Origin: Branchiostoma lanceolatum
Lineage: Eukaryota; Chordata; Leptocardii; Amphioxiformes; Branchiostomatidae
Length of the DNA stretch: 64,000 bases
Assembly (NCBI RefSeq): GCF_035083965.1
Contig: NC_089729.1
Span: 19,145,964-19,209,963 of the forward strand
Direction of reading: 5' to 3'
The position numbers and the translations under genes are program-made. Under the pieces are notes generated by a model. The model was not told where the DNA came from, searched no databases, and saw only the letters and a list, made by a program, of their open reading frames with translations. Shown piece after piece: positions 16,817-51,519 of this stretch. Every line of letters starts with the position of its first letter. The first letter of the stretch is position 1.

Positions 16817-17811
16817 ATGGCGTCTGAACTAGACCTGCTAAAGTCCAACAGGGAGGACCTTGTTGCAAAGATTCGGCACGTCAAACCTTTTCTAGACAGG
16901 CTGTTTCAGCATGATGAGATAGTTAAAGAGGATTATGACAACGTTGTGGCCGAGAAAACACCACAAGACCAGGCCAGAGCCCTGCTGGATATAGTAGAGG
17001 TGAAGGGCCGAGGGGCTTTCCGCCATTTTCGTGAGCACCTGAAGAAGGTCAACCCAGAACTGGAGGACGTGTTGCACAGGTAAAGTACAAATGTATCACA
17101 GGCACACATGGATAGAGGTAGTATACAATCATTGCCGTCCACATTTCGAGGAAATTGTAGGTTTCCCAACGATCCTGTCCAAACAATTCTGTATGGGTAA
17201 CCGGACCTAATCATGCTGTGCTTTCTAAAATAAACATATTACACAAAGATCTATAACCTTGTATTCAAGAGAAAGTATGTCGTGCAATTCACATCACATT
17301 GATATCATTTAAAACCTTGATTGTTTAAAATGACACTATTAGTGTCGCACACTACAGACAAAGGCAGAACATGGTAACCCCCATTGCGCATTGAGGGTCA
17401 TCGAAGCATGACTTATATGTTTATTTAACGTTAACCTTTGCATGTTTACTTTTCAGGTGTTCAAAACACAACCTGCGTCTGAAACTGTACTGTGAGGAAT
17501 GTGGGAGCTTGTTGTGTGTTGAATGTCGCTCGTTAGACCATACTGGACACAGGTAAAGTGTTCTGCATATTATCAATTGTTTTTTCCTTTAGATATATGT
17601 TGATAATGATCAGTCGGTAGACAGGTGCTGATCAAATATGGCGCAACTGTTGGTGTGTGCGTTTATGGACATGTGTGTCTTTGTATATGGGTGTGGGTGG
17701 GTTGGTGTAGCTGTATTTGTCTCTGTGTATGTATGTCTGTATGTGTGAGTGTTTGTTTATGTGTGAGTGTAGGTGTATTTGTGTAAGTATGTTTGTGTGT
17801 GTGTGTGTTTA

Positions 17812-20208: not shown

Positions 20209-23200
20209 ATGGGGAACGCTTTGGACGCAGAGCTCGGTCGGCTCGCCCAAGGTACGCTTTTTCTCACCCTGTTTATGTTTCAAAACAATAAAGCCATATT
20301 TTAGAATTATGATACAACGCTTCATAAACTAAAAGAAGCTTCGCATATGGATATTAAGGCCATATATACACGGCAACCACATTGGCATATGGTAAACAAG
20401 CTAGCATTTCTGCTTTCACTTTCGTACACCGCTTAGCTATATACAGCTTGTGTAAAAAGAGGAAGTAATCTGTCGACTAGTGTTGGTTGATAATACTCGT
20501 TTTCACATATTTTAACTTATAATATATGTTAAAAGGTCGAAAAGATGAGGTATGGTAGTGTGAATATGTGTTAAATAAGTATGGACTATTGACCAGACCT
20601 GTACCTGTGGTACGTAAACACCTGTACGTGACCGGAGGGGAACAATAGCGTACCTGGCGCAGGTATTGACCTTTTTTTAAAGTCGTCAGCCGTTTACAAA
20701 GAAACCGTGTGTACACAAAAATGTTAACGGAGCCTCGGCGCTGCTTTGATCTCAATGTGTAAAGTGTCACTCCACGAAATGGCCTCGTATCCCGGCATAT
20801 ACGTACAGGGATTCCTCCGGAAATATTCCATATCCCGGTGCGGATTTAGCGTATCCGTAAGTTATAACGGATACGCTAAATCCGCACCGGGATATGGAAT
20901 ATTTCCGGAGGAATCCCTGTACGTATACGCCGGGTTATAACGGAAACGCTAAATCCGCACCGGGATATGGAATATTTCCGGAGGAATCCCTGTACGTATA
21001 CGCCGGGATACGAGGCCATTTCGTGCAGTGTGTGGTAACAGAATAGCCTCCACCAGACCTTCCAACGGGGGTATGGATTGAATAATTCGACAAAGAATAG
21101 GTTACATAATTGTTTAAAAGAGTCAGTCCGAGAGAAGGGTCGTATTCTCCCTGTAGCCGATGTCGTTAGTCTGGAAGGGACTAATAGTCAATTCAAAGTA
21201 TAAAAACGTACCAGGCTGGACAGTTAAAAACTATATATATAGTGACAGCTCAAGGGATTTGGCAAAAATTGCATTTATGAAATCAGCACAACATTGGCAA
21301 TATTTGAAAACAAGCGCTAGGATTTCAGGTTGCTAATCATACACTCGGGTTTTTCCAATGACGTCATGTGCGGGTCATATGAAACCGGGGCGGAACTAAT
21401 ATGGCGGAACAAAACACAAGACAATACAGGGGTCCGTAGATAAGTTCATGGAAGTACTATGATAACTTGTGAAGGGAAAACATTTAGTGAATATTTTACT
21501 TATTGCAATTTTACCCATCAGATTTTTATAATATACAGTAGAATAGTCTATTTTCGCGAGGAAATGATATTTCACTGGTTGCAAAAATTCTACGAAGTAC
21601 AGTAGAAATACAGTAATCGGGGATTTATAATTTTTGCGGCATGAGGTCAATATCAGAAACCTTGAAAATATACCATCGCGAACATTTCAGGATTAACAGT
21701 ATGTAACAATCGGGCCATGTTACTGCATTCACTAAGCATAGATGAAATTCTATTGTATAACAGAAATACAAAACATATTCACGGCGTAATGATTCTTACG
21801 GTAACAAATGACCGCCGTAAACTGCGAAATCATCGCGAGCATTTAAGATTTACAGTATCTAACTGACGTCATGTTATTCACAGAACACTGCGAGTAGTAT
21901 GTGCGAAAACTGACTCAAACGTCAAAAGCGTATATCTACAAGGAGCACACATGTTAAGATATAGATCGCTTAAGGGTTTAAGACACACAAGTTATAAAAT
22001 TGGTGACTTATGATTTGTATGGGTATAAGATATTGACTGATAAAAGGGAAGCGTTACGTCCCAAGCAGTTGGGTTCGTCTACTTCCGGGTCCCGTACTTC
22101 CGGGTTTTGTACGTCACACGTCAACTGTAACGCTACATACGTACAGGTATAATTCTACTCTCTCAATGAACGTTCGTAATTTTAGAAACAGTTTCGAATT
22201 TCTCGTAAAACACACTATGCATATTAGATATATTTAGCGTAGCAGAGCATGGCATCGAACGTTGTTTTGTCACGAAGAATATTGGCTACTGCAGTACACA
22301 AACCCGCCGACCGAAGTTTAGCAGTATTTCTTTAAATCTATCAACACTTGTAACGGACCAGACTTTTGTACGTACGTGTACATTTAATCAGTGAGTATGT
22401 GTTTGTTTGTTTGTTTGTTTGTTTGTTTAATCAGAAGGTCACGTTACCTGTCTGGCCTAGTCTCTGGGTCAATGGTCTATTCTATTTTACAGACGGGGGT
22501 GTGACTTTGGGGTCACATTAGCGATTATAATCATTATGGTTAATGTAGTAATTTTGCAGGTGTACTTTACAACCTTACTGGTTAAGTTGTACCTTTAAAA
22601 TCTGTAAAAGCGTAATATGGAATTTTCTAAATGTTTAATTGCATTGTATTGTATCTAGAAAAAAATGCAAGGTACACAAGGGCACCTGGTTCTCATTCAT
22701 TACCTTCGCCGAGAAGGTTAACGTTATGTTTTGCACAGCGTTCGTGTGTTTGTCAGTCCGTCTATAAACAGTATAAATCGAGAAGAGCTAGGGGAATTTC
22801 CCCGGTACAAAGAACCTGTAAATACTGTACATGGCGTCTGTCTTCTCTGTCACGACCAGTGAAAGATTAGTTCATTGAGTTAATGTTGTTCATTTGTGCT
22901 AAACTGGTTCGAGATGACTTTCCAATCCTTTCCAGCAATCCAGTCCAGACTATAACCCGTCTCTAAATTCTATTTCCAATAGCAGTTTGAGAAAATGTTG
23001 CTGATATAGCAGCCTATAATATTTACATCATCATCATCATGTTGGGCGGCTTACCCGGACTAAGGCTACTCTTTCCCTCCAGACGACACGGTCCGCCATT
23101 GATAGATAAATATTGCTTTCTATTAACCTTGCTACCACTCTACATAGGCTTTTAGATTTCTATCTAGCAACGTTTCATACTGTCGTAGTTTAGGCACTAT

Positions 23201-26200
23201 TTCGTACGAATAACAATAAAAAGACCATTTAGCCTTACATAATAACGGAGTTAATTATCTATTCCTGACCGCCATATACAGACGGGCATAATAAAGATAG
23301 ATGATTGATAGTTAGCATTTAGACGCGGTGCTTTTATACTATTTGCCCCATACCAAGTACAATAGCAATACACAGTGCAATACTGCCCCTAGCGATTCCT
23401 ATATAAAGCTCATGTCCTCTTGACTGCCACTGCAGTTTTTATCTAAATCGCTATATGTCATTAATGTATGGTCCGAAATTGAATATGGAATTCAGACCTG
23501 CACTGATGGTAAAAAGTGATATACACAAACATGAAAATATTAGTCGTATAGAACTAAAAGAAACTGGGTGGTCTTCGGACATCAAGATTTTCAGAGTAAC
23601 TTTTATCTTTTTAGTCGAAATGAGTTGAGTTGTAGTTTAGGCCATATCTACGCTCTGAAGACCGATTCCTAACCTCCCTATCCTCCTGCGAAGTCTTTTT
23701 CTTGGTGGCCATGGATTTTTTTTTTGGGGGGGGAGGGTTGGTATGTTTTCTGAACGCTCTCATTTTCTTTAAGCCTACTGCATCGACATAACGATAAAGC
23801 TTAGCCGTAAAAGATCAAGCGAGTGATCAGAAAACAGCGCAAATCAGTCATACAAAATCGCCAGCCAAGCAAAAGGTCTGCTTTGGAGGCTGACATATTT
23901 CAGTGTCTGAATCATACTTTTTATTCGGTAACTGATTGCATGTTTTGTGGTACAAAATAGGTAAGATTACGCCCAGTTTGCTGCTAGTTACAATATACTA
24001 CAAGCACAATACATCGTAACCTGCATTTTTTCTGTCGCCTCAAACTATTGTACAGCAAAACTATAGACCCCATTTTTTGCTACCAGAATATTGAAAATTA
24101 CACGGTTTCAAAAATTGTCTGCACTTCTTTGTCTTTACTATAACTTTTAACAATAGGCATGTCCAACGTTGCGCAGTTCTACTTTTACTTATACTTTCAG
24201 TATCAACTGTTTTTGCTGAAATCAAGTTGTATCTACTAAGAAAGGTTTTTCATGTTTTGATTTTCAGAAGCTTATAATGGGTCTGGTCAGTACTTTCTAG
24301 AATTGACTTAGCCATCAAAAACTATTTGGTCAAAGGGAGAGGATAGCAAAACTTTTTAAAAAATCTCACGTTAAAAAGTTAGCACTTGTCCAACCGACCG
24401 CTCTTGTTTGTTCTTGTCCTACAGTCGGCGATAGCCTGGGCCGCTACTCTAAAGGAGACAAGGTCAAAGTTGAACATGACCTGATGACCCTACAGCTGCT
24501 CCAGAGAGGTCATGGTGGTTTCACCTTACCGATGTTAGAGGTGACATGTTTTCTTATATTTTTCTTTATGCTATATTCTACAGGTCTTTTCAAATCTTGC
24601 AAGATAACATGGTTTCTGTCGATTCTTCTAAACTGCCTTTTAAACAAAAAGCTGCAGAAGAAACTTTTTTTTTACAATCGTTTATTTCATCACGACGAAA
24701 GAATAGGATTGTTTACAACAATGTTGATAACTGTCCTTGCCACATGTATGTTTCCTATAGCTATGTCTATACCGCATGCATATTTCCCAAGTTAACGTAA
24801 TTGCAATCAGCCTTTGGTGAGGAACTTGCAACTAAACGTACTTTTCATAAATAGTCTAAGGGTTCTCTCCTGCATTTTGAGTTGAGTAATGTTAAGGTGG
24901 GCTTGGGCATTGATACACAATGTAGTTTTGCAACAAAAACAAGTGAGGTTGCAGTTATACAAGACAATGGAAAGCTATCTAAGAAGACATTACTGTCACA
25001 TTGTTTCTTGGTAATATGTTTGTCTACTTATGACGTAATTAGAATATAAGTACTTTGATTCACACATGTTTAGTTTTGAATTATTTTTTTTAGATTAAAG
25101 TAGTTCATCACAACTTTTTATGGCACTGTTGATCTCCTTTCTAGTGCATAGCGACAGAAGGAACTGTAGAAGGCGTGGACCAGGATGGTGACATAGTCGT
25201 CCGGTATCCTAGTGGACACAGGTAGGTCTAAATCCTTATAGACAAATTTCTGCCCCCCCCCCCCCCCCACACACACACCCCAATGCCATTGGCAATGATA
25301 TCCATGATGTTACAAGAAAACGTATAACTTTCACCATCTGACTGACATAATATGACTTGTCTCATTACAAGAAAATGAACTTCATCTAATAAGATTGAAG
25401 CCTAAGTATGAGATATAAACATTTTATTTTTTTCTCAGATTTTGCCTGAACCCCGACGCCCTGACAAAAGTCGGCGGGGACGACAGCTCGGCCCTCCGTA
25501 CAGGAGACTGGGTACGAGTCAGTGACGATCACGGGAAGGTACAGCGGCAGCAAGTTGGACACGGCGGCTGGAACAACGACATGGCAGCGGTTAGTCTTTA
25601 TCTTTTGTTTTTAACGTTTTTTGCTATCATCTTAATAGATTCTGTCGTTAGTATGCAATACAATCTTTATTGACACAACAAAAGTACAGCGACTCTCGTA
25701 AGGTCTACTTAATCTATACATACATACATACATACATACATGCCAACAAACAAAGTTCAAACTGATGAATTTGTTTATATACAATCATATGGAATAGGGC
25801 AACATACTGAAATTTAGAGTGTGTCGTATACTTATACATTACTTGTTTTTATTTCCAAACATTCTTTGATGTATATACCTATTTGAACACAGTAAGGATT
25901 ATCTCCTCTCAGTATGTAATCAAATCTATCAACAGAATGGAGCATATTGAATTCACTTGAACAAGTGGAAATAAAGGTGAACAGCTTAGAGCGTTTATCC
26001 TCATATCTTGAACAATTCATGATAAAATGGCGTTCGTCTTCAATTTCATTTGGGCAGAATGGACAAAACCTTTCATCACTGGGAATTTTACGATACCTTC
26101 CGGTTTCAATGTTCAATTTATCACTAGATATTCTTATCTTTGTAATTGCTTTACGAATTTTGAAGTTATGTACGCTTGTAAGGTACTTTTCTTGTCCGTA

Positions 26201-29200
26201 TATTTTCTTTAAAGAGGAATAGACAGAAGTTTTGAATTGTTTTTAATAGAACTATGCCAATCTTGTATGTATATATCCTGCAGACGTTGTCGTAACTGGT
26301 TGATTAACATGTCAGTCTGATATAGTCTAGGGTTTGTCCATACATGTCCAAAACCGTTATAGTCAAGAATATCATTAACATGGTTCACCCAGTCATGATC
26401 ACCAGAATGTAGAACGTCGTATGCTTCATGTAATAGGGTATCTTGGGGCATATGATTAGGTACGTATTGATTAGGTAAAAACTTAGGACTGTTTGTAGGT
26501 ACAGACGTTGTCGTTGGTTGCTCTATTGACATCCAATTAAGATTGAGAGTTAAGCTTTTAAACAGGGTAAATGATACCATTCTTTCTTATTTTCTTTAAG
26601 CCTGTGAGCAAGGGTATTAAGAAAAGAACTGATTATCATACTAATGATTAAAAGTTCTAAACACAGTGACTAGGCTAGCGGACACGAGATAGAGAGGTTA
26701 CGGGTTTGATTCCTGGCAATCCTGGCTGGATGAGAAAGGCACTTTTCTTTCACCACTCGATCATGTGCAAATATGAGCACCCGCAGCTGAAAGGTTAGGG
26801 AGGTAAACGGCGGTGGAAGGAGATAAAGGGGCTTGGTCTTCCAATACCATGTCCTGGATACTGCGGATAACAACCCACTGCCCCTACGCTTCAAAAAAGG
26901 CTATGGAAGGAACTACTTATCATCATCATTGTTGTTGTTACTGTTACAGAGCCTGGGGAAAGTAGGCCGCATCGTGCACGTGTTCCCCGACCGGGACGTG
27001 AAGGTGGATGTTGGCGGCAGGATGTGGTGCTTCAACCCGGCCAGCCTGACTAAGGTGTCCGCTCCTGGAGGAGGAGGGAACAGACTGAGTGTGGGAGACC
27101 TGGTGAAGATTGACAGTAACGCGTCCAGGGTCCGGACCATGCAGGAAGGGCACGGTGGATGGGTACCCGCAATGTCAGCCGTAAGTTAACCATGCTTAAC
27201 TAATGCAAAGGTCACATTTCCAAACCGGTGCCCGGCCGGGCTGTTTGCGAGAACGATAAGTATGATACGGAGGGCAACAAAAAAAGACCTTTATTAATGA
27301 TCATTATTTGTGTATATTTCTTAGCCCGATCGGGCCCCGATTTTGACATGCGACGTCGATAATAGCATAAGGTTGTACAGATTATTCCTCGGTCACATAT
27401 CAAATGATGTATCCCCATCCGGGATCCGGCCCCGATGGACCCCGACCGTGGGCCCACTCCAGCTAGCCCCCAAAATGACCCGACAGCCACTGTATTCTCT
27501 TTAAATTCAAATGTAGAGACAATTACACACAAAGTTATGACGCCCACATGTAAACAAACTTACAATAGCGCCATGCCACCACTGGGCTAAGCCAAAAGTA
27601 AAAATAATAAAAAACACAGCCGTAAACTACCTGGCGGGGAACCGGTTTGGAGATGCACACTAAATATGATTTGTGTATATAGCTTACTCAATGCTTTTTC
27701 AACAATTAATCATCAAAACTTAGGTCTCCAAATAACGTATAGTGTGGACCACACTCATCACTTCAATGCATTACCAGCGAGATAAAGTTATGTTAAACTT
27801 ATTTCTATTTTATCTATCCCAAGTCTTTAGGCCAGGTTGGTCGAGTAGTAGCGGTTGGTGCCGACCGTGTAAAAGTGGAGATTCCAGGGAAAGGCGGCTG
27901 GCTGTACAACCCCGTCGTGCTGACGAAGGTTGAGAAGGCCAGGTCCGACAGTAGCGGCAGTAGTAGCAGCAGTGGCAGCAGTAGTGCCAGTAGCAGCAGT
28001 AGTGGTGCGGCGGAGATCAGTGTGGGAGACCTTGTCCGTGTGAGTAATGACGCTGAGCGGGTCAGGCTGCTCCAACGGGGACATGGCGGCTGGAACGACA
28101 GGATGTTAGAGGTGAGGCGATCTTTACTTTGCCAATTAAAGGTTCAGCTTCATATTGCGTTCGTGTGTGTGTATGTCGACGCGTGACTCGGGACAGCCTG
28201 GATGGATTGCCGCTATATATGGTATGTGTGTAGGTCTTCAAAAGATATGATTGGCCCCTAGTTGTCTGTCTTGGTACTGCAGTCGGTTTCCGTATCCTTT
28301 TGTTTGAAGCTGTGGTAGCTATAGATAGCTTTCGTGCATGTTAAGAGGTCGTGGAACTCTAGCTTCGTAATTTTATCGACGCCAATGTTTTTATCGCGGA
28401 GAAAGGTTTCCTCTTAGTTGGTAACCACTAAAAGTTGAAATTGCATCAAATAACATAATCTTAGCAACATTTCACCCAGAGAGCGTTTAGCTATTACCTT
28501 TTTTCTGTCTCTTGTTCAAGTTCATTGCAGTTCAGCAGTTTAGTCAAGGATTTTCGTTGAAATATCTATCAATTTTTTTTAATTTTGAAACCCTCTAGTA
28601 GATATATCCAGGGGCAACATGTTGCATGTTATGCTGGCCAATCAATACTAAATAAGGATCTGTTGCTGAGTAACATTGTTTCACATAACAAATCCTGCCA
28701 TTCTCCAATCACCAGGCCTCAGGCAAGGTTGGACGTGTGGTCAAAGTCGATTCGGACAACGACATGACAGTCCACGTGGACGGCACGGACTGGCTCTTCA
28801 ACCCGAACTCACTGACCAGGGTGTCGTCAGGTAAAGATAGGACGAGCAAATATCGCCGTTATCTAGACGTTTAATCCTTTTATTTTACAATTCTTATTTT
28901 GTTTCAATCTTTATTTCCTTGCTCAAACCCTTGACTGTCTCTTTGCTAAACACCATGCAGGGCTATTGAGAATTTGAACTGTTCACCGACTCAAAATGAC
29001 GGTCTCACAGATCAGCTATATGACTCGATCTCTTTGGCCACATAAAACTGGGTACATGTGACGTCAGCAATGGGTCAAAGGTTATTGGAAGTCGATATCA
29101 CCCTCCGCCTGGAATAACCGCCCGAAGAACCTGATGTAAAGGCTGACATTATTCACAACATTTGATCTCATTCGTATTGTTACCTTTTACTTCTGATACC

Positions 29201-32200
29201 TTTTTTCTGTGACTTTATATTTGTGAATGGTTGAATACCAAAACCTGTTTATCACGTCCTGCTTTCAAAACATTGAAAGAACTTGTCGAATTTCCGACAA
29301 GATGTTAACAATTCTTCAGGAGGGGGTTCACAGGCCGCGCCTAAACCATCGAGTGGCGAGAAATCCGCCATGTGTGCCAAGGGAACGCACCAGTGGAACA
29401 AGGACAAGTGTAAGGTGTGCAAGTTTTGCAAAAAGTGCACCGGCTACGGGGGCAAATGTGTGGAAGAAGCAAAAGGAAAACTTCTGCGGTTTCCTGGCGG
29501 GTAAGTTGTTCTAAACATCAAACATGTCAAAGACTGTATCAAAGTCTCTCTGTTGTATGTCGTTCTTAAAACTTCGAATACATTCTATTCTAAGTAATCT
29601 GTTTCCGTGTGAATACGCTAGCTTTTGGGCAACATTATCGCACTTTAGTCTGTGTTAGGCCCATTTAGGACCTGCTTGCATTGTTAGTATTCAACGTTCA
29701 AAGATAAAAGTTGGACAAACTGGGTCGCATTTTCGAACCGAACCCGACCGCAGTTTTCCGGAACAAAAATTATGACATAAAAGATAATAAAGCTCACAAC
29801 ACGTATAAAAAAATAATAAGGCCCACTTTATACCCAGCCTTTCACGACAGCCGTCGGGACGCTGCTGTCGAATTTGTGCATTTTCTTGATGAAAGCATTT
29901 TTTTTCTACTTTTGTTAAGCATCCCGGTCGGGCTACGGTTTAGAAATGTGACTACGTATAAAATGGAGATGGTGGTAAAAAGCAGCTGCTAGCGTTCATA
30001 TGCGTATGAATTAATGAACTGCTATTAAACGACAACCGTACTTCAATGGTAATATGACATTAATTAAGAACAATCAAATATTGTCGACAACAACAAATTA
30101 GTTATATTATCGTCATAGATGGATGATTTGATATCACTTTTGTAATAGGATGTCAAATTAGTATCAATGTATTAGTCTCTGCTTTACTTGAGGTAATCAA
30201 AATGGCTTTTTTAATAACCGCTGTCTCTACCTCAGTCCGTGCGGCTCTGTGGTCTGGGTGACGCTGGGTGTGAGCGGTGCGGTTGTTGCCGGACGTGTGC
30301 CGGGGAGGACGACAGTAGCGACAGTGACGAGGACATCGGCGGACTGATGAGGCACCTGGCCGTCGGGCGGGATCAACTCACTGTTTTGGACCTTCTGAAA
30401 GGTAACCTGTATACTCAGTTTTAACTATAACCGTCTTAGCTTGAAAGTTCATCTGTGTTGGTAGAAACCATTCTTAAACGAGTTTTAACTGTGAATCCTT
30501 GACAAAGACCGATGTCGTACTGTCGAAAATTTGGGTAAGTCCAATTTTTTGTGTTGGAAATTACAGTTAAAACTCGTTTAAGAATAACCGTCTTACATTG
30601 CACAATTACAAAATAGAGGGAATGGCAGCGAAAAAGATCAAATATTGAGTGATAGGTAGAATGGATTCCGTTGACTACATCCTCCATGCAGCAACTAGCT
30701 TCAATTATTATCATTATCATTATTAATATTATTATTGATATCATTCTATTGTTATAAATTATCAAAATCAAATTACGTAAAGCCGGTGGCCCTAAGCCTG
30801 TGTACGTGGGAGCGTCAGGCGTAAGCCTAAGACGTCAATCATCTGCACAGACGTCAAGAACCCAGCACACTTACGCTTATCTAGAAGCCTATGATTTCCA
30901 AGGTGTTTTTGTTTACTAGAAAAAGCAAGCAATGCCAAAGCAGGATCCTGTTTTAAACTTTACGCTTTGTTCCACGTATTGTTCTTCGACTTCGACGGAC
31001 AAAAACCTTCTGGCATATCAAGCAGGCGTGGTGGTTTTACTCGATATTTTAGAACAGGAAATCAAATATTCTTTGTGCCGGTTATGTTCTGAAAGTCAAG
31101 AACAAGCGTCTCTATTTTCTCTTCCCCATTAGCTGCTCTTGAGAGGAGTGAGGACGGAGCAGGTACCCCCAGGTCCGTGAAGACGCTCTCACCTGAAGAA
31201 CGCCGGGAGAAGCTGTACGAGCACCTGCCCAAGATGAGCAAGGCCATCGACATGGTCAAATCAAAGAGGTACTACAGTGTAGTTTAGTCAATTGTTAAGC
31301 TTATTAAATGGCTGTAGTGGTTATCAAATCAAAATCTATGACGCAGCGCTTGCATGTCTTAGGTCAACTGGTGTTAAATGAGCAGTAGTTTTTTGAACTC
31401 TGCAATAAATAAAGTTAATTGATTTATCAACGTCAATTAGCTTCAGCGATGCAACAATTACCTAAAACAGAAATGCTGTGATTCCCGTGTCCTCCCGGAT
31501 AAAAACATTATTTTACGGCAATCTAAATTTGGTTGCAGTGCACCCCTGGAATTGTTGGATTCTTGCCCAGTAGTAACGAAGTAAGTACTCTTTCCCCCCA
31601 CAAATGATACAGTGCATATCGTGTTCGTGTAGCTTAAGGTCTCACGCGCCAGTTAGGCCACCCCATAGGAAAAAACGTTAAAACACCAACCTTTCATGGC
31701 CGTAATTCCAATAAAACACAGTTTCCTGAGATGTTTTACTTTCTATTGCAAGCACACACGATCTTAAGACAATGGAAAAAATGTCACCAAAATATAACCT
31801 GGGGAGCGATCTGTAATGGCATTTAAAACTGTCGTTACCTGCCAGTCGCAAGAGGTTTTCTGGTGCCGAGAGAGGCCGACCGCAGTACTCAGGTCAAAAT
31901 AGCGTGTACGTCCGACAATCGCTTGAATGCCGAAACTTTCCTGCCTTATCCTGTCAGAGATGAACAAGCTTTCATCTCAAATGCTTATTATATCAGGTGG
32001 GATCGATCAAAGGCAAATTATCATCGACCTAAACACCTGACTTTGGGGCCTAATTATTTTTTTTAGCCCGCACTCTTTTGGCATCTACACGCGGAGTAAT
32101 TGAGGCATGAGACCTTAACTGACCGAAGCCTCACAGTTCATGGGCTTCTGGTTCCAATTAGGTGGAAACTAGGAGACCCCGTTTCAAATCATGGACAGCT

Positions 32201-35200
32201 AATATTGGTTGGGGATGTAACCGTCTTTAGGAATAGCCGCAAAATAGGGGTTCGATGGAAATGGTCTATGTGCCACTAGGCTTCATCTGATCAACAACAA
32301 CATCGCAAGAGGTTCTTATCGCTTGAACTGTTGTTAATGAACAGGGATGGGGGGTCTGTCTCCACCATCAAAGACACGCTGGAAGAAGCTCTGGACGGCC
32401 CCTACAAGTCGTTCCCTAAGAAGGCAGAACGTAAGATCATGGGAGACCATCTGGCCAACATCGGGGGTGCGCGAGCATTGACAGACTACCTAAAGTTCCT
32501 CATGAATGGAAAGCACACAGAAGAACAGGTATGGGACCCACACTTTTTAAGACCTATTCTTGTTTCTGAAAAGCGAGGTCAAGTATGAGCACTCTTTAGA
32601 CTATCACGACAAGTTAAAGTATCATTTGTGAAACATTGCAACAAAGATATATGCCATTCATTGAAATAGAATGTTGATCTGAAGTAAATGAAAATGCTGT
32701 ATGACAATTTATGTCATGCCTGGACCTGATACGGGTGTTCCGGACCGTGTGATAACTATCCGGATCACATAGGTTTCGGAAGTGTTATCACACAGGCTTC
32801 CATAGAATATTTCGAACGCATTTCGAGCACGCCGGTTGCGCGGCCGTCAGACTTCGAATACCGGATTCGGAGATTAGAATCAATGTTGTTGCAGTTTTGT
32901 GTTCGAGGACACAAAACTCCCTCAACTTCTGGCGCATTCCGCATTGAAATGTGTGTTTTCTCGGGTGGGTACGGCCCAGGTATGACATAAATAAAATACA
33001 ACACGTTGTATTCCGCATCACCCTCGGTCCCAGCCCTCCCGCGGGTCGGATCGCCCTCCAGCCTACGGCCGTCGGGCGATCCGACCCGCGGTCGGGCTGG
33101 TACCTCGGGTGATACGGAATACCCCGTGTTGTATTCTATATGAATCATATAATTGCAATCAGATAAAATATAGACCAAATATGCCCAAATCAGGAAAGTG
33201 TAGATTTGCATATCTTGCCTAACAATGTTATCATGATACTAGAAATGTAATACTGTTACTGTACTAGATTGAGGTTAATTGTCAGCTAACACAGAAATAG
33301 ATCGTTTATTCATCATAAATGCTATAGATTAAAGTAAAAACATGATTTGCATTTCTCTGAGCCGATTGTCACATGTCTGTTTTTTTTTTAAACATCTGCA
33401 GGTGCAGCTGAAATGCCTGCATGTCGTCCGGAGTCTGTTGTGGAATTTCTCCGATGCCAGTTTCGAGTTCTGTCGGGAACTCGGCAAGTCCGGCCTTCTG
33501 ACGATTGTTGCCCAGGATCTGGCCAACTTCGACGGTGCTGATCTCAAGCATGAGGTAAGAAAATTATTCTTTTTATTGAAGAGCGTGACATTTATGTCGT
33601 ACTAAATCTTGGTCTACTGTGATCAATCATAAATATCTAATGTTACGGTATTCATCTAAACCAAAAACAGCTCATATTCATGGTTCGTTTATATACTATA
33701 TATGCAATGTAAATGTTTGCAATTTTTTATGTGTAATCTGTTAAAACGATAAAACATAAAATGACTTGAAATGATTTAAATGATTGGATTTCCAAAGTAT
33801 AAACAATTTAGCATAATTAAAAAAATTAAACATTTGCATTCATTTGAGTCCATGACTACCCTTGCGTACTTCTCTATCACTGGCATTTGTTATGATCACG
33901 ATTATAGTTAGTCTGCGCTTTCGTAGGCGATATATACAGAATACAACACGGAGTATTCCGTATCACCCACGGGCGATCTGACCCGCGGGAGTGTTGGGAC
34001 CGAGGGTGATGCGAAATACATCGTGTTGTATTTTATTTATGTCATACCCTGCCGAGGAAACACATAATTTAATGCTTAATGCGCCAAAAGTTGTGGGAGT
34101 TTTGTGTCCTCGAACACAAAACTGTAACAACATTGATTCCAACCTCCAAATCCGTTATTCGAATTTTTGACAGCGGTGCAACCGACGCGTTTGAAATGCA
34201 TTCAAAATATTCTATGGAAGCCCGTGTGATACAACTTAGAACCCCGCGTGATACGGAACATTATCACCTGGTTCGGAACAGCCGTATCAATCGTTTTCGC
34301 GGCCCAGGTATGACATAAATTAAGATATCGAAGACCTTAGGCATGCTGCTGACTTCATCGCATCTCACTATCTGATCCACATTTCCATATTTCTACGTTT
34401 TACTTATAATCCAGGTCATCCATCTGGTGGTCCTGTCCGCCATTGCCGTGATGCACAACTGTGCCAAGGTGCCGGAGAACCGGCACTTCTTCCAGGACAT
34501 CAAGGCCGTCGACCGCATTAGGCCTTACCTGCAAGTCGAAGATCTGAACCTAAAGGTAAACCTTTGAATACAGATCTGTTCATTGTTCCTCACACACGCA
34601 ATGTAAGCCTAATGGTGGTAACTTTTGGAAGACCTTTAGTATATAAGACACAATCAATATGGGGTAATTAATCATGTCGCACAGAACATATTGTAGATAT
34701 TATTTTGATATTGCCAACTAGTAGCAGCCTTTTTCAGATGCTCTAAAACAATATAACGTTAAATTCTTTTTTGAGATGCTCTTAAACAATATGTAACGTT
34801 AAATTCTTTTTGCCGACTGTGAGAGCAAATGGGTTGAGAGAGTAATCTGGTAACTGCTGGTGGAATGGTAGCTGGCTATCATAGTATGAAAGTTGTGGTG
34901 AGTTTCCAACCACATAGATAGTGAAAATATATTTGTACTAATTGAGGAGCACCAATTGAGGAGCACATTATGGCATCTAAGAACTGTACCTTTTCTTTTG
35001 AAAAGGTAACTGTGACCCAGGTACATGATATGCTTACCTCTCTTCCTCTATCTTATACAACTGGGTTTGACAACATAGACACTTCATTGCTACGTATCTC
35101 TGCTGACCACATAGCAGGTCCTTTAGGTCATATCTTTAACAGCTCCTTTGAACAAGCAACATTCCCTGCACAATGGAAGAATGCGAAGATACTGCCTCTA

Positions 35201-38200
35201 ATCAAGAACAAAGCACTTCCTTTGAATGGCGCAAACAGCCGCCCCATAAGCCTCCTGCACACCATAAGTAAATTAATGGAAAAGATAAGTAAAAGCCAAA
35301 TCCAATCTTACCTTGTATCTAACAACATTCTATCCGATCGCCAGCATGCATACAAAATGCACCACTCGACAGCTACGGCTCTCATTCAGATGACGGATAG
35401 ATGGCTACAAGAGGTAGATAAAGGCAACATAGTAGGCGCAGTACTCTTGGATTTCAGCGCTGCCTTTGATGTGGTAAACCACAGGGTGTTGTTGGCCAAA
35501 CTAAACAGTTACGGATTCGACAACTCTGCCATTAGCTGGGTCAAAAGCTATCTGACCAAAAGAACACAAGCTGTCATGGTGAATGGCAGTGTGTCATCTC
35601 ACAGAGAGAGCTTGAGTGGGGTTCCACAGGGGAGTTGTTTGGGTCCCTTACTTTTTTGCATTTATACCAATGATCTGCCCACAGTTGTCACACAGTGCAG
35701 TATGGAGTTATATGCCGACGACACAACCCCATCTGCTTCCGGCCCAAATGCTTCAACTGTACAAAACAAACTGCAGTCCGAACTCACAAATATACATGAC
35801 TGGATTAAAGCGAATAAACTCATACTGAATAAAGATAAAACTAAATCAATCATCTTTGGCAGTCGCCACAAGCTAAAGCACAACCCTAGCATACAGCTTT
35901 CATTGGATGGCAGAATGATAGAGCAGGTAGCACAGGCAAAATTACTTGGTTTCCTAATGGACCAGCACTTGACATGGACCCCACACATTGAAAAAGTGTT
36001 AAACAAGATGACTGGTTCCCTAGCAGTGCTAAGGAGATCAAGAAATCTCCTTTCTGAAGGACCACTAAAAACAGTGACTCAGACACTAGTCTTATCCCAC
36101 ATGGATTATTGTTCTTGCTTGTTGTCCACTGGCCTACAAACATCCTTAAACAAACTACAGACTCTGCAGAACAGGGCTGCCAGACTTGTTTTAAATGCAC
36201 ACTACACAGACAACACCAGTGACATGCACAGGAGACTGCAATGGCCCACAGTTAAAGAAAGACTTTACACTGGTACACTCTCCATGTTCAACAAACTTTT
36301 AGCAACTAAGAAACCCGAGGCTATTTACAAAAGATTACAAAATGTCAACAGTACACATGACCACAACACTCGTTTTGCATAAGGTGGCAGTTTCAGGTTA
36401 CCTAAGCCTAAGACAGCAACATTGACACGTACATTCTTGTACAGATGTACCAAATCACACAATTCCTTCCCACCACATATGAAATCTACTACACCTTCAA
36501 ATTTCAAAACACAAATCACCATGTGGATTCATTCTAAAATTGACACAACTAGGCCTTTACAGTACTGGTGGTAATACGTTCTTGAACCAAGTCCTTGATT
36601 AAATGAAATTGTAGCTGTAATTAATTAAACTCAAACTATTGTAAAGGTAGGCATTAGTATTTTCTTTGTTAAGTTTGGGTTATTAAATTATTATCAGGTC
36701 GCATCCATTTTGTTTTCTACTTAGTTATTATGATTCACAGTTCCGCATCCACTTGTTATTTACTTATTGTTATTATGATTTGCAGTTCTTCATCTACTGT
36801 GTTATTTACTTATTGTTATTATGATTTGCAGTTCTGCATCCACTTATTATTTAATTATTATTATGATTTGCAGTTCTGCATCCACTTTGTAATTGACTTA
36901 TTGTTATTATGATTTGCAGTTCTGCATCCACTGTGTGAATTACTTATTGTTATTATGATTTGCAGTTCTGCATCCACTTTGTTAATTTACTTACTGTTAT
37001 CATGGCTTGCTGTTTGCATCCTCTTTGTTATTTACTTTGAAAAGATTTTGTTACTTTATTCAGCCATGACCTCTGACCGTCCCCACGTTTCATTTTAATT
37101 TCAGTTTTGAGTTAATGTTGTATGCGTTATGTTATATTTTGATTTAAACTCACACCTTTGTTATGTTGGTTTTACTTTCATGTACATTTGTTCTGTTTCA
37201 TTGTTTTGGACTCCAGGAAGAATAGATTTACAATGTACAATCTAATGGAGATCTCAATAAACAAACAAACAAACAATACTACTGTTTTCTTGCCCTTTTG
37301 TCCCCACTCGCATAGACTTTTTAATGTCATAAGAGCCAAATAGTAGGACACAATTTGCCCCATATAGTATGAATAAGATGTGACAACCTTCGCCACCATT
37401 GCTTCGTTCGCACCTTGTACATTTCACTTGAACTGTGTCACTGACATCATTGTTACTCTTACATGTGACGGTAAAAGTTTGGCTATCATTCACAACTATC
37501 TTTACTGTTGCAATTCAACTCCTTTTACCGTATCATATAATACTGTGTGATTGTGGCTATGGTACTTCACTAATAACCATCTAGCGTACCATAGCGAAAC
37601 TCCTAGAGCAAAATCTCCATTACTGATGACTGTCTGTACCTGTCAGGTTCCTGCCGTGCTGACCATGGCGTACATCGTGGAGGACAGAAACAGCAGTCTG
37701 ATCGAGGTTGACGACAGCGTGGCGGATTACATCATCCGGACCATGAACAAAGCACTTAGTTCCTCCGACATGAGGTAAATATAGTTTATTTTTGGTGAAC
37801 ATGAGCTTTACATTTTGGGGAGGATATTTATAATTAATTACATCGACTTCCGTACAACATTAGCGACTGGACTTTCCAGGGTAGACATAACGCTGTCAGT
37901 GTGCGATGAGGAAAGAACTTAAGGCCCTGTCACACTTCTGCGTATATCTAGGTGCGCGTGAATTGAGCATTAACATTTTTTTGGGGGTTTAAGTAAGGTT
38001 TGCGGGAAAAAAATTTTTTTTTTTTTCCACTTTGACCCATTGTTGTGCGGCCTAGTCTTGGAACCTAAGAAATTGCTTATTTGACTGCAAACTTCACCGA
38101 AACCAAAAACATGTTAATACGCAACTCATGTGGTATTGTATATACGCACAATTGTGACAGGGGCTTTACTTCATATTTGAGTTTTTGTCTATCTCTAATG

Positions 38201-41200
38201 GTAACTATAGCCTCTGGAAGTGTGTTCAATAGTCCTTGTGTGTAGCAGCCGACATTAAATTACCAACATACGTTCAAAAATGAAAGGCCTGCACTGCATA
38301 CATGTAGAACATTAACTATCATAACAGTTATCCCGCTGGAAACTAGGTAATGTATTCTTTCTAGCACATTGCTATAGGGAAATTTCTTCCACAGCTGCAA
38401 ATGTTCTTTCTAGATTTCTACTCTGAATATTATGCACTGTCCGTAACATAATGTCATTAGGTTGGTAGAACATAGGATACTGGAGATTCTTTTAACACAA
38501 CCAGTAAATCTCACCTGCTGATGTTTCGGTGTCTGCCAGACACCTTCCTTAAGAGCTTCTGACTATACTGCTTCTCACCGCTATAAGTAGCCGAAGTAGG
38601 TGACGCTTTTGCGGCGAGAACACAATCCCATATATGCACGGTCGTTTTACCTTAGGGCTGATGGCTACTCAGTCATGGAGCTGGCGATGGCCCTGGGTGC
38701 GCTGGCTCGGAATGACGCCAACAAGGAGCTGCTCACTAAGAAAGGAGCCTTGAAGCTGCTGATTGCCCTGGCACAAGATGGTGACAACACCGATAAAGAA
38801 CAGGCTGCGAAGGTGTGACATATACATATCTCTAAAAGTTAGACGACAATGCAAAATCAACTAGAAATATGATCTTACATTGCAATTCTTCGATACTAAA
38901 GCCTATCTTGAACCTGGAATATTGAACCTTGAACGGGGACAGCTATCGATGTCAACACGGGGAACAATGGATTCTTCTTCTCCACTCTGCCCTGTCCTCC
39001 AACAGTGAGCGAATTTCTGTAATGATGTCTATCTTGAAGCCTAACTTAATATGTGTCATGGGTCGATAATCCTACTCGATGAATTAAAAAACAAACATGT
39101 AATGAGTTTTTGTCTTTAATAGAAAGTGGTTGACTTGAATTTGATTTAGAGAGAATGAAAGCAAGCAGCATCTGTAAGCAGACCTATCAATGATTCGTTA
39201 AATACTCTAGTAAGGCTATCAGCTTATTTTGGTGAACTAATTTGTCATGACTTTTAGGCAGTACAGGCCTTCCTCTACGATCCCGACATCAAGGCACAGG
39301 TGAAGAAGGACCCAAACGCGGTGACGGTTCTGAACCAGCTGAAGGAGCACGACGACCACGCTGTCAAAAAAGCGGCCACCGATGTCATGCAGACACTGCA
39401 GAAAAGCACTGCAGGTATGTGGTACTCATGCACTTATAAACGTGATATAATACAAGGCAATTCCACTTTATCTTTAAATGTTTCGACACTCCAAGTGCGT
39501 GGTACTTAATCTGACGTCGCTACTGCAATACCCTGCAATATGGACTCACCACATTTGAAAACAGATATTACTCATATTTTTGGGCAGATGTACCACTACA
39601 TTCGACGATTTATCTTACAAATGTATAAAGTTCCAACGGCTTTGAAAAAATGATTACCATTTTCACGATAGGAATAGATAGATAATAGTACCAAATTTAG
39701 ATGCCATTTGAACCATCTCTAATAAATAACGGTAGAAAGGGTACTGATCCTCAGCGACCTTTAACCCTATTCTGAAGTCACGTGTTCTAAAGGTAATGAG
39801 TTCAGTCATACTGAGGAAGGCCAAGGGTTCCATGAAAAGTCAATTTAGTAAAACAGTCTATTGTGACAAAGGTTTTATATATCCATTATCGTATCTACCA
39901 ACCAATTTGATACTAGCACACGGATTATAACTAGATGCGTTTCTTGTATACTTTTCAGATGATTGCCCGTATATGCAGAAGTGCATGAAGTTCAAGACCT
40001 CTTTAAAGTTAAAAGGTACGACTATTCTCGTTTCTGATTTTTTTAATGATTAGTTACGTGCGTTAGACATACACTAGATTTATAAACTTTGACATAAATT
40101 AATTTAATATAAGTTGTTATTTGACCATTGAGACGAAAAATGACATTAAAGGAGTTGAGTTTATTGAGATGTCCTATAGCCCCTCTTGGGGGCTAATCTT
40201 CCAGGGCTCATTAAACAATACAACACATAAAACATACACCAGATATACATACCTTCAGGTCTTGTTACGTGGTGACCACTGATTTAAAAAAAAAACGGCA
40301 TTCTATCAGTATTAACCATTATTTGTAACATCTTGCAAATAGATCTGTGGGCTGGGAAGAAAGCAATTACACATACATAAGACATAACTTATTACAGGAA
40401 AGTGTGCTTGGGCGTCATTTATAGATGGCGTATTACCATAGAGGATGGACTCTTCTGAGCTAACAATAATGTTTGTTCCTATGATTACAGACGGGTTTTT
40501 CGACGCCCGGTTCAACATGTGTTACTGCCGGGAGTGCCACCTGTCCCGCGGGGACCAGGACTACTACAAACGCGGCGATCCACAGAAGGATTACGGACTG
40601 CCAGTGGGATGGTGCCGCTTTTCTCTCAAGTTAGTAAATGTATATGTCCTTTAGTTTTACTTGCTTATTTTCACTTTCGTCATAAAGATATCATCATTAG
40701 GCAATGCTTTGTAGACAAATTACAATCACGAGTTTCCATTCCTTCTGGTTATTCAGTCATAACGTTAAACCATGGGTTAGTGAAGAATAAATAATCTACT
40801 ATTAATACAGAAATATATATGTATAATGCAAATCTGTAAGGATAGTTGGATTTAAACTATTAAACAATGTGCTAGTTTGACTTAGACATATCTCGCTAAC
40901 GATTCTAATTACGTAAGTAACGTCCTGTCCAGTTACATATATCTACCAAGTAAACCACCGAGTGTGTTTATATTCGTAAGGTAGCACAAAGCTAAAATCA
41001 AATCCTGCGTAAGTTATACGTAAAGACACAAAGTAGCCAGCATTTATATGCGCTGAAATATTTAATCGTTTGCGCTTAATTGCAGTGCTGCCTAATGTAA
41101 AAATATTATATTTACTCTTGCATCCTTTAAAAAAATTAAGAAATCAATTAGCTCGATCTCTGGAAAAACAATGAACACGCCTTGGAAAAATGGCAATGTC

Positions 41201-43202
41201 ACATTATCATGACCTATTGTATTTGTTTAGTCACCGATATGTGTTTTACATTACCAGGGTCCCTCCCAGAGCTACAGCGCTTGACGTGTTCAACCAGTGG
41301 CACGTGGCGTTCCACGGCACGACTGTGGGCGCGCTAGAGAGTATTCTCAACACTGGTGATCTCATCAAAGCAGGTAAGGCTGCAGGTCACATTTGCCGGC
41401 AAATGCAAAATATTTCATATACATTTCTATTTCATAACACGTACATATTGATCACGCATAAAATGAAAGGGTCGTTGTTATTGTTAGTTGCTCTCGTTTT
41501 TAAAGGCCCACATGCTCTTTCACTCACGTAGTAATGTTAGGTGTCCGCCGTTTTTTTGCCATTTATAGACAAAATGTGTATTTTGGGCTCTTGTTTCCTG
41601 ATATTTGAAATACATGGAATTATAACACCAGTCAAGAATTTGGTATAGGGGTAGCTTTCATACGAGATATGGAGAAGGGATAACATAAAAAAAGTTTATT
41701 TTGCATGGGGGTATTTTAAAAAAATACCATTTTGGAATGGTGGCGTTTGGATGGATGAATGTTTTGAACAGAAACAGATTGAAATGTCCTGTATTTGCTC
41801 GCAAAAGAAGCCTTTCTAGTTTCTGTTGTTTTGTTGCGCATTGGGGACTGCTCACTGTTCGCACTTAGCAGCTTAAATAGTTGCCCTTTACCAAATTTTG
41901 ATTAGGGCATTCTGAAAAAAAAAACCTTATTAAATATTAATACGCTTATTTGTTTGGTAAATACAATCACTTGTTATGTCGTGCGTTTCGGTTTAGTATA
42001 TGTTTCGTCGCTCAACAGATAAATCAAAGCTAACAGTTATTTGCACCCTTAAATAGCAGGTTCTTAACTTGCCTTTAGGTGACAAGACCATGGAGGGGAG
42101 CACGTTGTCGGAGCGGGAGGGGCACTACAAGGACAGCTGGAAACCGAAAGACTTTGACACAAAACAGGTCTTTGTCTCCCCCAGCATTCACTACGCGGGA
42201 CTACCTGCCTATGCAAAGGCTAGCAGGTGACGAAAGCGCGATTTTATTTCATAGTTTCAAATATTCATCCTTAAGTTGTCGTGATGCCGTTGAATTTTCA
42301 AGAAGGTTATGTCTGAACCAACCGCCGAAATGAATATGAGGCAGCCGTTTCCATAATAAGACTGTTACACGACACATGCAGCTTGGTTATCAAAGGAATG
42401 CTCTCCGTTTGCACCGTACGACCACCGAACAATATACATGTACTAGTATTTAAGGCGATCTTTGCATTTTTGTCATTGGAGTGGACTGAGCCAGTCTCAA
42501 TTATTCACCCTACTTTTGCCGAATTCTACTCTCCATATTCTTGTAGAAATGACTGGTTGGGCTGATCACTTTAGGGGCAGTGTGCTAGTCATACATGACT
42601 GTTATCTCTTTTTACCAACCCCTAAGTCATAAACGAATCAATTAAGAAAATGTAAGTACATCTGAAAATGTGGGAATCCTTTCATTTCGAAAATTGCCGA
42701 AATATGACATATGTTTCAAAAGAAACTCCAATCTATACTGCATACAACTGTTTTGTATTTACGCTTCTAAGAATGATATTGAGAATAACCACACAAAAAA
42801 TTATACTTTGAATGCTGCACATTTTTCTTCAAATTGACCCCAATTGGACTCAACACAGACTTTTCTATATGAGTTTTACAGTATTCTGCTTTTTTGCGTA
42901 AATATTAGGAAATCTTAGTAGATTTATACTGACAAAGTCACTGATGAAGTCCCTTGTCAAAGATTTACACAAATTGTCGCTAATTTTTTTTCCGCAGCTT
43001 CACTCATCGTGGAACGACCTATGAAGCTAAGGTGGCCTTACAACTCTACATCAAGCCAAGCAGCTATAAAGTCGGCGCCTCTACGGTCGCACGGAAGAAC
43101 ATAGACAAGAAGTTCAGCGACAGTGAGATCGAATGGTCCACGGACCGACACGGAGTCATCATTGTGTACGGCCTGCTCGTCAAACTGGAGGAGAAGAAGT
43201 AG
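20209..43202 (+). CDS. Mind-bomb-type SH3 repeat / Cys-rich / ARM-like / FHGT-domain protein
   Basis: Twenty-one exons: 20209-20251, 24425-24540, 25145-25221, 25439-25589, 26950-27180, 27824-28111, 28716-28830, 29320-29500, 30236-30401, 31133-31268, 32345-32528, 33402-33554, 34415-34555, 37647-37774, 38656-38812, 39258-39414, 39959-40015, 40491-40629, 41258-41373, 42079-42226 and 42998-43202. All have GT/AG borders, and all junctions are in frame except 29500/30236, which leaves a 2-base surplus. About 1,028 residues result if that conflict is removed. Order of parts: four Mib-type SH3 repeats (about 22-335), a cysteine-rich block (about 350-425), a helical armadillo-like region (about 455-807) and a C-terminal domain (about 840-1028) with CYCRECHLSRGD, PVGWCRF, WHVAFHGTT, FVSPSIHYAG and SEIEWST. 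The protein begins MGN in a good Kozak context. Mib repeats bind substrates in E3 ligases such as MIB1, but no RING or HECT is seen, so an adaptor role is a guess. Confidence 0.8.
20767..21030. mobile_element. Foldback (long inverted repeat) element with a duplicated arm
   Basis: The left arm (CACGAAATGGCCTCGTATCC... to GGATTTAGCGTATCCGT, ~90 bp) is followed after a few bases by its near-perfect reverse complement. That right arm is then repeated in tandem (about 20862-20935 and 20936-21010) before the final GATACGAGGCCATTTCGTG. The result is a left arm facing two right arms. It lies in the first intron of the Mib-repeat gene and has no coding capacity. Confidence 0.85.
21031..24424. other. 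Remainder of intron 1 of the Mib-repeat gene
   Basis: AT-rich sequence with no exon found. It includes a pair of related ~30 bp stretches (GCGAACATTTCAGGATTAAC near 21676 and GCGAGCATTTAAGATTTAC near 21835), a (GTTT)n run at about 22396-22428 and a G-rich tract near 23719-23736. Confidence 0.5.
25716..26580 (-). mobile_element. Non-LTR retrotransposon fragment (3' end), antisense in intron
   Basis: Two minus-strand open stretches (26580-26209 and 26116-25832) encode the C-terminal tail of a LINE ORF2: QRLQDIYIQDWHSSI, then LNIETGRYRKIPSDERFCPF with CPFC, ERHFIMNC and a CCHC-like spacing. The gap between them has a frame break. A (TATG)n tail lies at 25716-25742, at the 3' end as read on the minus strand. 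The reverse transcriptase core is missing, so this is a 5'-truncated dead copy between exons 4 and 5. Confidence 0.75.
26664..26905 (+). mobile_element. tRNA-derived SINE-like repeat
   Basis: The head has an A-box-like TAGGCTAGCGG and a B-box-like GGGTTTGATTCC. The body (AAAGGCACTTTTCTTTC, then GATAACAACCCACTGCCCCT at the end) matches the minus-strand copy at 47765-48013 along its length. It lies just upstream of exon 5, which starts at 26950. Confidence 0.7.
27211..27660. mobile_element. MITE with GTCACATTTCCAAACCGG-type ends, copy 1
   Basis: The left end GTCACATTTCCAAACCGGTG and the right end (reverse complement GTGTGCATCTCCAAACCGGT) form an imperfect inverted repeat. The interior is rich in CCCGG/CCGGG motifs. 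A smaller relative lies at 29723-29952. It begins 31 bases after the end of exon 5. Confidence 0.55.
27946..28010 (+). repeat. In-frame AGC/AGT repeat coding for polyserine
   Basis: AGT/AGC/GGC triplets encode a Ser-rich linker (about 18 Ser with a few Gly/Ala) between Mib repeats 3 and 4. The array keeps the frame and is the sort of tract that varies in length between alleles. Confidence 0.9.
29320..30401 (+). other. Cys-rich zinc-finger-like block with a frame conflict
   Basis: Exon 8 encodes CAKGTHQW, CKVCKFCKKCTGYGGKC: regularly spaced cysteines that probably bind zinc. Exon 9 continues with CGLGDAGCERCGCCRTCAG, followed by an acidic Ser/Asp stretch. Joining 29500 to 30236 puts exon 9 in the wrong frame (stop after about 35 codons), although exon 9 in its Cys-rich frame then joins exon 10 perfectly. 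A 2-base surplus near 30246-30248 (TC of GGCTCTGTGG) would restore a CGCGxGDxGC pattern. This may be an assembly error, an allelic frameshift or an unseen microexon. Confidence 0.65.
29723..29952. mobile_element. MITE with GTCACATTTCCAAACCGG-type ends, copy 2
   Basis: The left end GTCGCATTTTCGAACCG and the right end (reverse complement GTCACATTTCTAAACCGTAG) match the termini of 27211-27660. It lies in the intron between the two Cys-rich exons. Confidence 0.5.
30402..31132. other. Intron with a short inverted repeat
   Basis: GTTTTAACTGTGAATCC near 30482 and its counterpart AATTACAGTTAAAACTCG near 30557 form an inverted pair with the extension TTCTTAAACGAGTTTTAACTG/CAGTTAAAACTCGTTTAAGAA; this suggests a small foldback element (about 30472-30586). 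No exon is seen elsewhere in the intron. Confidence 0.55.
32707..32992. mobile_element. MITE family M, copy A
   Basis: The ends ATTTATGTCATGCCTGG and CCCAGGTATGACATAAAT are inverted repeats. The interior includes GTTGCAGTTTTGTGTTCGAG, shared with the inverted copy at 34035-34320. It directly abuts foldback element F. Confidence 0.75.
32993..33137. mobile_element. Foldback element F, copy A
   Basis: AATACAACACGTTGTATTCC...CCGCGGGTCGGATCGCCC pairs with GGGCGATCCGACCCGCGG...CCCGTGTTGTATT. The arms are ~60 bp and the loop is about 17 bp. Confidence 0.8.
33939..34034. mobile_element. Foldback element F, copy B
   Basis: Shorter relative of 32993-33137 (GAATACAACACGGAGTATTC to CATCGTGTTGTATT) with one arm partly lost. 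Confidence 0.65.
34035..34320. mobile_element. MITE family M, copy B (inverted)
   Basis: The ends ATTTATGTCATACC and CCCAGGTATGACATAAAT bracket an interior that is the reverse complement of copy A (for example CTCGAACACAAAACTG). With element F it mirrors the A pair across exon 12 (33402-33554). Confidence 0.75.
34970..36382 (+). pseudogene. Reverse transcriptase ORF (470 codons) of the retrotransposon
   Basis: An uninterrupted frame holds the RT motifs in order: TGFDNIDTSLLRISADHI, WKNAKILPLIKN, RPISLLHTISKLMEKI, HSTATALIQMTD, motif A (AVLLDFSAAFDVVNH), motif B (GVPQGSCLGPLLF), the catalytic box YADD, and the thumb motifs (KLLGFLMD, THIEKVLNKM-like). After the stop at 36380-36382 the same frame continues for about 60 codons with typical CR1-like C-terminal sequence (GSFRLPKPKTATLTRTFLYR), so the stop is probably a premature TAA. 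The start lies at the beginning of the RT domain, so the element is truncated and cannot be autonomous. Confidence 0.85.
36705..37040 (+). repeat. Minisatellite in the retrotransposon 3' region, unit ~45 bp
   Basis: About seven imperfect units contain TTATTATGATTTGCAGTTCTGCATCCACTT (written here in shortened form; key words are TTATGATTTGCAG and CTGCATCCAC). Unit lengths vary between about 43 and 58 bases. Confidence 0.8.
37923..38167. mobile_element. MITE with GGCCCTGTCACACTT ends
   Basis: The left end AAGGCCCTGTCACACTTCTG, then CGTATA, and the right end TATACGCACAATTGTGACAG, then GGGCTTT, are inverted repeats with few mismatches. The size is ~245 bp. The interior has a long T-tract. Its right half matches the element beside the NXPE donor near 1.6 kb. 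It lies in the intron between exons 14 and 15. Confidence 0.8.
39959..43202 (+). other. C-terminal FHGT domain, possible ADP-ribosyltransferase relative
   Basis: Five exons encode CYCRECH...RGD..YYKRGDP, LPVGWCRFSLK, then WHVAFHGTTVGALESIL, a GD loop, VFVSPSIHYAG...YAK, ALQLYIKPSSYKVG and SEIEWST..GVIIVYGLLVKLE. Order and spacing of the H(GT), S(x)xxYA and E(xE) elements are reminiscent of the H-Y-E core of PARP-type ADP-ribosyltransferases; I also think a similar C-terminal module occurs in neuralized-4-like proteins, but this is from memory. Whether the site is catalytic is unknown. Confidence 0.4.
40016..40490. other. Intron without recognised features
   Basis: Introns 17 to 20 of the Mib-repeat gene (40016-40490, 40630-41257, 41374-42078 and 42227-42997) are AT-rich; no repeats or extra exons were recognised. 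Confidence 0.4.
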
Positions 43203-51455: not shown

Positions 51456-51519
51456 GTCTGCGTGTGCTAATGCGTGTTATTAACGCATTTTTGTTTCTTA
51501 CAGTCTGCTCCTTGTCCTA

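Follow-up and report, generated by a model that had tools for sequence, protein, structure and literature searches.

Which kind of protein combines Mind bomb (Mib) SH3 repeats with a cysteine-rich block, an armadillo-like region and a C-terminal domain carrying an FHGT motif? A forward-strand gene of this order lies in the window analysed here, a stretch of 64,000 nucleotides from Branchiostoma lanceolatum. An earlier note, which knew no named protein with the same order, had proposed an adaptor or perhaps an NAD-dependent enzyme with a tie to ubiquitin signalling. We consider it probable, judging from sequence, that the gene encodes an intracellular multidomain ADP-ribosyltransferase (ART) of the NEURL4 type, which would grip its targets with the Mib repeats.

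Gene structure

The forward strand can be read as a model of 21 exons that encodes 1028 residues with zero internal stops (Table 1), in agreement with the earlier model in exon count and final residue. Exons were listed with a simple exon finder using textbook splice matrices and a human codon table, with domains unused; the human table, which also served for the controls, was not trained on this gene. Between 20.0 and 43.3 kb, the forward strand holds 16 candidate exons of at least 25 bits, 15 from this gene and one from a LINE reverse transcriptase, compared to a single candidate on the reverse strand and zero in each of 15 dinucleotide shuffles. The exon signal of the gene is far above that of the opposite strand and the shuffles. 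Joints between neighbouring forward-strand exons were in phase in 16 of 22 cases at a threshold of at least 15 bits (P = 1.8e-4), 14 of 17 at 20 bits (P = 4.7e-5) and 13 of 16 at 22 bits (P = 1.2e-4), with the reverse transcriptase exon excluded and a chance expectation of one in three; on the reverse strand this was the case for 3/8. All 20 introns of the model are bounded by GT-AG, which is in part a consequence of the method, since no other sites are tried by the finder.

Three phase failures occurred on the forward strand at 20 bits. One is explained by the weak exon 25145-25221, which lies below the threshold, and another by an acceptor picked 7 nt off (27831 for 27824); the third, at the joint 29500/30236, is a real problem that we treat separately below. 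The whole-gene model runs used a codon table that had been retrained with exons of the gene itself, which makes their scores circular, while the controls with the human table are unaffected. Exon borders 24540 and 25145 were set by hand in place of 24514 and 25152 from the model runs, because an SH3 repeat stays whole with them. Two proposed exons (32895-32979 and 33034-33108) were dropped, as 32528 and 33402 are already joined in phase; the second of them also falls inside an inverted repeat. The reverse transcriptase exon, joined in by two model runs, was likewise dropped as part of the LINE. An upstream CARD exon was set aside as part of the gene, given that the ATG at 20209 is preceded only by a very poor acceptor (score -3.2). 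With its MG start, the protein might be N-terminally myristoylated.

Table 1 Features of the gene and of its predicted product (window coordinates)
Feature	Position	Strand	Basis
Whole coding span, 21-exon model, 1028 aa	20209..43202	+	exon finder and open reading
First coding exon, 14 full codons from ATG (putative start)	20209..20251	+	7.1 codon bits, donor score 8.0
Mib SH3 repeat 1, three exons	24442..25472 including introns	+	Pfam SH3_15; closest to MIB1 repeat 1, 51% identity
Mib SH3 repeat 2, two exons	25491..27057 including introns	+	Pfam SH3_15
Mib SH3 repeat 3, two exons	27082..27931 including introns	+	Pfam SH3_15
Mib SH3 repeat 4, two exons	28013..28823 including introns	+	Pfam SH3_15; MIB1 repeat 2, 52%
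Cysteine-rich block, possible zinc binding	29373..30310	+	sequence; IGFBP E 0.41 only
Doubtful 55-nt exon	29920..29974	+	0.5 codon bits; splice scores 3.8 and 5.0
Armadillo-like region of helical repeats in six exons	about 32364..39413, limits by eye	+	weak Pfam and PDB matches
Short Cys/His cluster CxCxxCH ahead of FHGT domain	40520..40540	+	sequence
FHGT domain, three exons, predicted NEURL4-type ADP-ribosyltransferase	41292..43199	+	ordered motifs; residues about 885-1028
HGT motif	41313..41321	+	residues 892-894
FVSPS motif	42171..42185	+	FVS, residues 943-945
EIEW motif	43125..43136	+	EIE, residues 1004-1006

Mind bomb repeats without matched ligase domains

The four Mib SH3 repeats announced in the earlier note are borne out by profile search, SH3_15 (PF18346) matching in four stretches with E 1e-72 and 240.8 bits against a curated cut-off of 24. 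The top PDB matches of the array are MIB1 structures (4tse, E 1e-40; 4xi6, E 2.6e-36). In a small tree, repeat 1 grouped with MIB1 repeat 1 (support 0.965) and repeats 2 and 3 with each other (0.855), and repeat 4 joined these two weakly (0.486). The array thus looks like the MIB1 REP pair with the second kind of repeat multiplied: repeat 1 is most similar to MIB1 repeat 1 and repeat 4 resembles MIB1 repeat 2, to which it is as similar as to repeat 2 of its own protein (52% each), so the REP order would have been kept with the extra repeats in between. MIB1 and MIB2 share the SH3_15 repeats of the REP domain with this protein, but have two of them instead of four. The JAG1 tail C-box is described as the binding target of the MIB1 REP domain (PMC11887331), and the four repeats may similarly grip short linear motifs in the tails of target proteins.

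Pfam scans were run on the protein in pieces, leaving aside the 18 residues of exon 29920-29974. At E up to 1, none of the three pieces (N-terminal, middle, C-terminal) matched RING, HECT, ankyrin, ZZ or MIB_HERC2, and neither did the cysteine block and the FHGT domain at E up to 10, in agreement with the earlier note, which had reported no RING, HECT or ankyrin. Mind bomb E3 ubiquitin ligases are marked by RING fingers, ankyrin repeats and a MIB_HERC2/ZZ module. Neither these hallmarks nor that of a HECT E3 ligase were matched in the pieces scanned. Neuralized (NHR) repeats also gave no Pfam match at E up to 1, which sets the protein apart from NEURL4 orthologues.

Cysteine clusters and the armadillo-like region

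The cysteine-rich block, described as zinc-finger-like in the earlier note, could be placed in no named Pfam family, its only match at E up to 10 being IGFBP with E 0.41; the shorter CxCxxCH cluster had no Pfam match. Both clusters may be structural zinc sites, and the block may additionally hold partners. Further downstream, the label ARM-like is fair but weak, because the region matches ARM_PUB (E 9.5e-6, 25.7 bits, cut-off 33) and ARM_ARMC5 (E 1.2e-4) under the respective Pfam cut-offs and its best PDB match is an engineered protein (E 0.0019). The Pfam Arm model itself reached E 0.059, and the best natural PDB chain was an armadillo-type dynein-docking subunit (E 0.089). The region, which the earlier note had also called ARM-like, could hold partner proteins.

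The C-terminal FHGT domain resembles the ART domain of NEURL4 in three short motifs

The motifs of the FHGT domain follow each other in the order HGT, FVS and EIE, so that the triad reads H-F-E, and the ordered pattern occurs at a single place in the 1028-residue protein, at residue 892. This is the motif order of NEURL4-type ARTs (HG[ST], hydrophobic-x-S, ExE). In Table 1 of PMC7955679, the 121-residue ART domain of human NEURL4 is given the motifs HGS, LLS and ELE and the triad H-L-E; the same table, from 2021, records this domain as undetected by Pfam and its activity and targets as not determined. The likeness between the two proteins consists of these three short motifs as compared with the published table: both have HG[ST], xxS and ExE in order, a triad of histidine, hydrophobic residue and glutamate, and a domain that Pfam does not detect. 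They differ in the middle triad residue, which is phenylalanine here and leucine in NEURL4, and in their accessory parts. NEURL4 (ARTD17), which associates with HERC2, combines six Neuralized repeats with its ART domain, whereas Mib SH3 repeats and an armadillo-like region stand here, with no Neuralized repeat matched. With the PARP/ARTD family (PARP1, tankyrases, PARP15) the FHGT domain shares the HGT/HGS first motif and the final glutamate of the H-Y-E members, PARP1 being listed with HGS, YFA and YNE (Table 1, PMC7955679); phenylalanine replaces the tyrosine of the triad, and sequence or profile similarity to the family was not detectable.

NEURL4 has been called the most studied among the few diverged human ARTs (PMC10789625). 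Its loss nearly abolished mitochondrial PAR synthesis according to a review (PMC9149570), and it is described as a HERC2 partner with suggested roles in the assembly of centrosomes and in Notch signalling (PMC5617467). By likeness to such enzymes, the FHGT domain would bind NAD+ via its HGT and FVS strands and employ E1006, the latter glutamate of EIE, to transfer ADP-ribose, singly or as a polymer. The exon signal, the open reading, the SH3_15 repeats and the motif order are observations, and fold, catalysis, targets, zinc binding and cellular location are predictions.

It is also conceivable, if clearly less probable, that the protein is a non-catalytic adaptor, whose ART-like domain binds only NAD+ or ADP-ribose, or nothing, and which brings Mib-type clients together with proteins bound by the armadillo-like region. 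Two ART-like domains, those of PARP13 and TASOR, are inactive according to Table 1 of PMC7955679, and the FHGT domain is without a match to any enzyme family. However, the triads of these two inactive domains are given there as Y-Y-V and L-Y-Q, while the triad histidine and the final glutamate are both kept here, which argues for catalysis. The NAD-dependent enzyme of the earlier note thus gains support from the NEURL4-like ordered triad. Its proposed tie to ubiquitin has its only basis in the Mib repeats and in NEURL4 being a HERC2 partner (PMC5617467); for ubiquitin as for Notch, any link of the FHGT protein would be one of analogy through repeat types.

The joint near 29.5-30.2 kb

The earlier note had raised a break around 30-31 kb as something that would refute the model. 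At 20 bits every joint from 30401 on is in phase, but the step from 29500 to 30236 is in phase only via the weak exon 29920-29974, which the model runs took up to keep the phase between exons 29320-29500 and 30236-30401; without it the reading halts at residue 438. We think it unlikely that this marks two adjacent genes, one for a Mib-repeat and cysteine protein and another for a separate ARM-ART protein, or a gene broken at this place or decaying as a copy. Such a view would account for the phase shift between 29500 and 30236, for the 0.5 codon bits of the only exon that mends it and for the stop that follows when it is skipped. Yet the halves of the cysteine block flank the joint, one on each side, the 21-exon reading is open throughout, the joints after 30401 hold their phase, and the splice sites at the joint itself score 10.6 and 4.0, with an assembly indel as a possible cause of the shift. 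The small exon is doubtful, being compatible with a real exon, an assembly error or a true break alike. What was found about the domains flanking the joint is independent of this exon.

Profile comparisons of the FHGT domain

Searches of the FHGT domain against Pfam (including the PARP model, PF00644), NCBIfam, PADLOC, PHROGs and PDB sequences returned no match at E up to 10. Alignment with hhalign to PARP1, TNKS2 and PARP15 was not significant, the score of 14.0 over 17 columns being equalled or exceeded in 11 of 100 shuffles; scores of 9.7 to 11.7 were obtained for three further proteins of the window. The enzyme assignment consequently rests on the motifs. NEURL4 is reported to be locally less similar in structure to the PARP1 ART domain than all canonical PARPs are (PMC10450202), so a negative sequence test is expected here, though it is still negative. 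That the FHGT domain has an unrelated fold with three ART-like motifs by chance would agree with the insignificant hhalign result and the empty library searches, but is unlikely given that only 122 of 200000 shuffled versions of the domain showed the ordered triad (an optimistic count, because the pattern was widened with the FHGT sequence in view) and that a hydrophobic strand pattern follows EIE as in PARPs, as judged by eye.

Scans of viral contigs and prokaryote genomes, which reach close relatives only, yielded no confirmed relative. The single phage match (Gordonia phage ZiggyZoo, E 0.1, 29.5% identity covering 59% of the query) is annotated as a hypothetical protein, with lysin B and a minor tail protein encoded nearby; we provisionally treated it as a chance match.

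Implications of the domain order

Similar unnamed proteins presumably exist in other invertebrates, so that the protein probably belongs to an undescribed family and does not stand alone. Among the matches listed in a search of open papers, partly aimed at the order, we recognised no protein with the order Mib, Cys, ARM and FHGT, in line with the earlier note. The gene product is predicted to be a NEURL4-type ART with other accessory domains, and as such neither a Mind bomb ligase nor a NEURL4 orthologue. A relative of the NEURL4 domain on a different and structurally known substrate grip would offer a handle on what such enzymes modify.

Neuralized binds Delta tails via its NHR repeats. Binding of Notch-ligand tails by Mind bomb through its own repeats, and of Delta tails by Neuralized, is described in PMC11887331. 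It is tempting to speculate, at long odds, on a second kind of NEURL4-type ADP-ribosyltransferase with Mind bomb repeats in place of Neuralized repeats, which would write ADP-ribose on the class of clients that Mind bomb and Neuralized ubiquitylate and thereby act against or beside ubiquitin in ligand endocytosis. If true, two unrelated repeat types of Notch-ligand ligases would be joined to the same kind of enzyme, a proposal that is directly testable.

Other features of the window

The window has the look of animal DNA, with interrupted genes, a neurexophilin-type gene and a haem peroxidase gene, as well as the CARD exon and the LINE, and gave no tRNA or Rfam matches. The LINE is represented by a reverse transcriptase ORF of 478 uninterrupted amino acids (34946-36382, forward strand; RVT_1 E 2.9e-30) in the intron from 34555 to 37647. 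Another intron carries the inverted repeat at 32981-33149, whose arms of 83 nt are 81% complementary and 3 nt apart; the finder partly mistook it for an exon. Upstream of the gene lie the CARD exon (16833-17079, forward strand, E 1.7e-17), which a crude model had fused with neurexophilin exons, and the neurexophilin-like gene itself (9747-13227, forward strand; Neurexophilin E 9.7e-17). Two exons near the window start (2556-1702, reverse strand) include a piece that is 73% identical to the neurexophilin-like gene over 118 residues and had no Pfam match on its own; this identity on the opposite strand suggests an inverted duplicate of the neurexophilin-like gene. Downstream, an animal haem peroxidase gene spans 51504-61759 on the forward strand, with An_peroxidase matches at exon 57003-57781 (E 9.9e-85) and exons 52708-53170 (E 6.9e-9).
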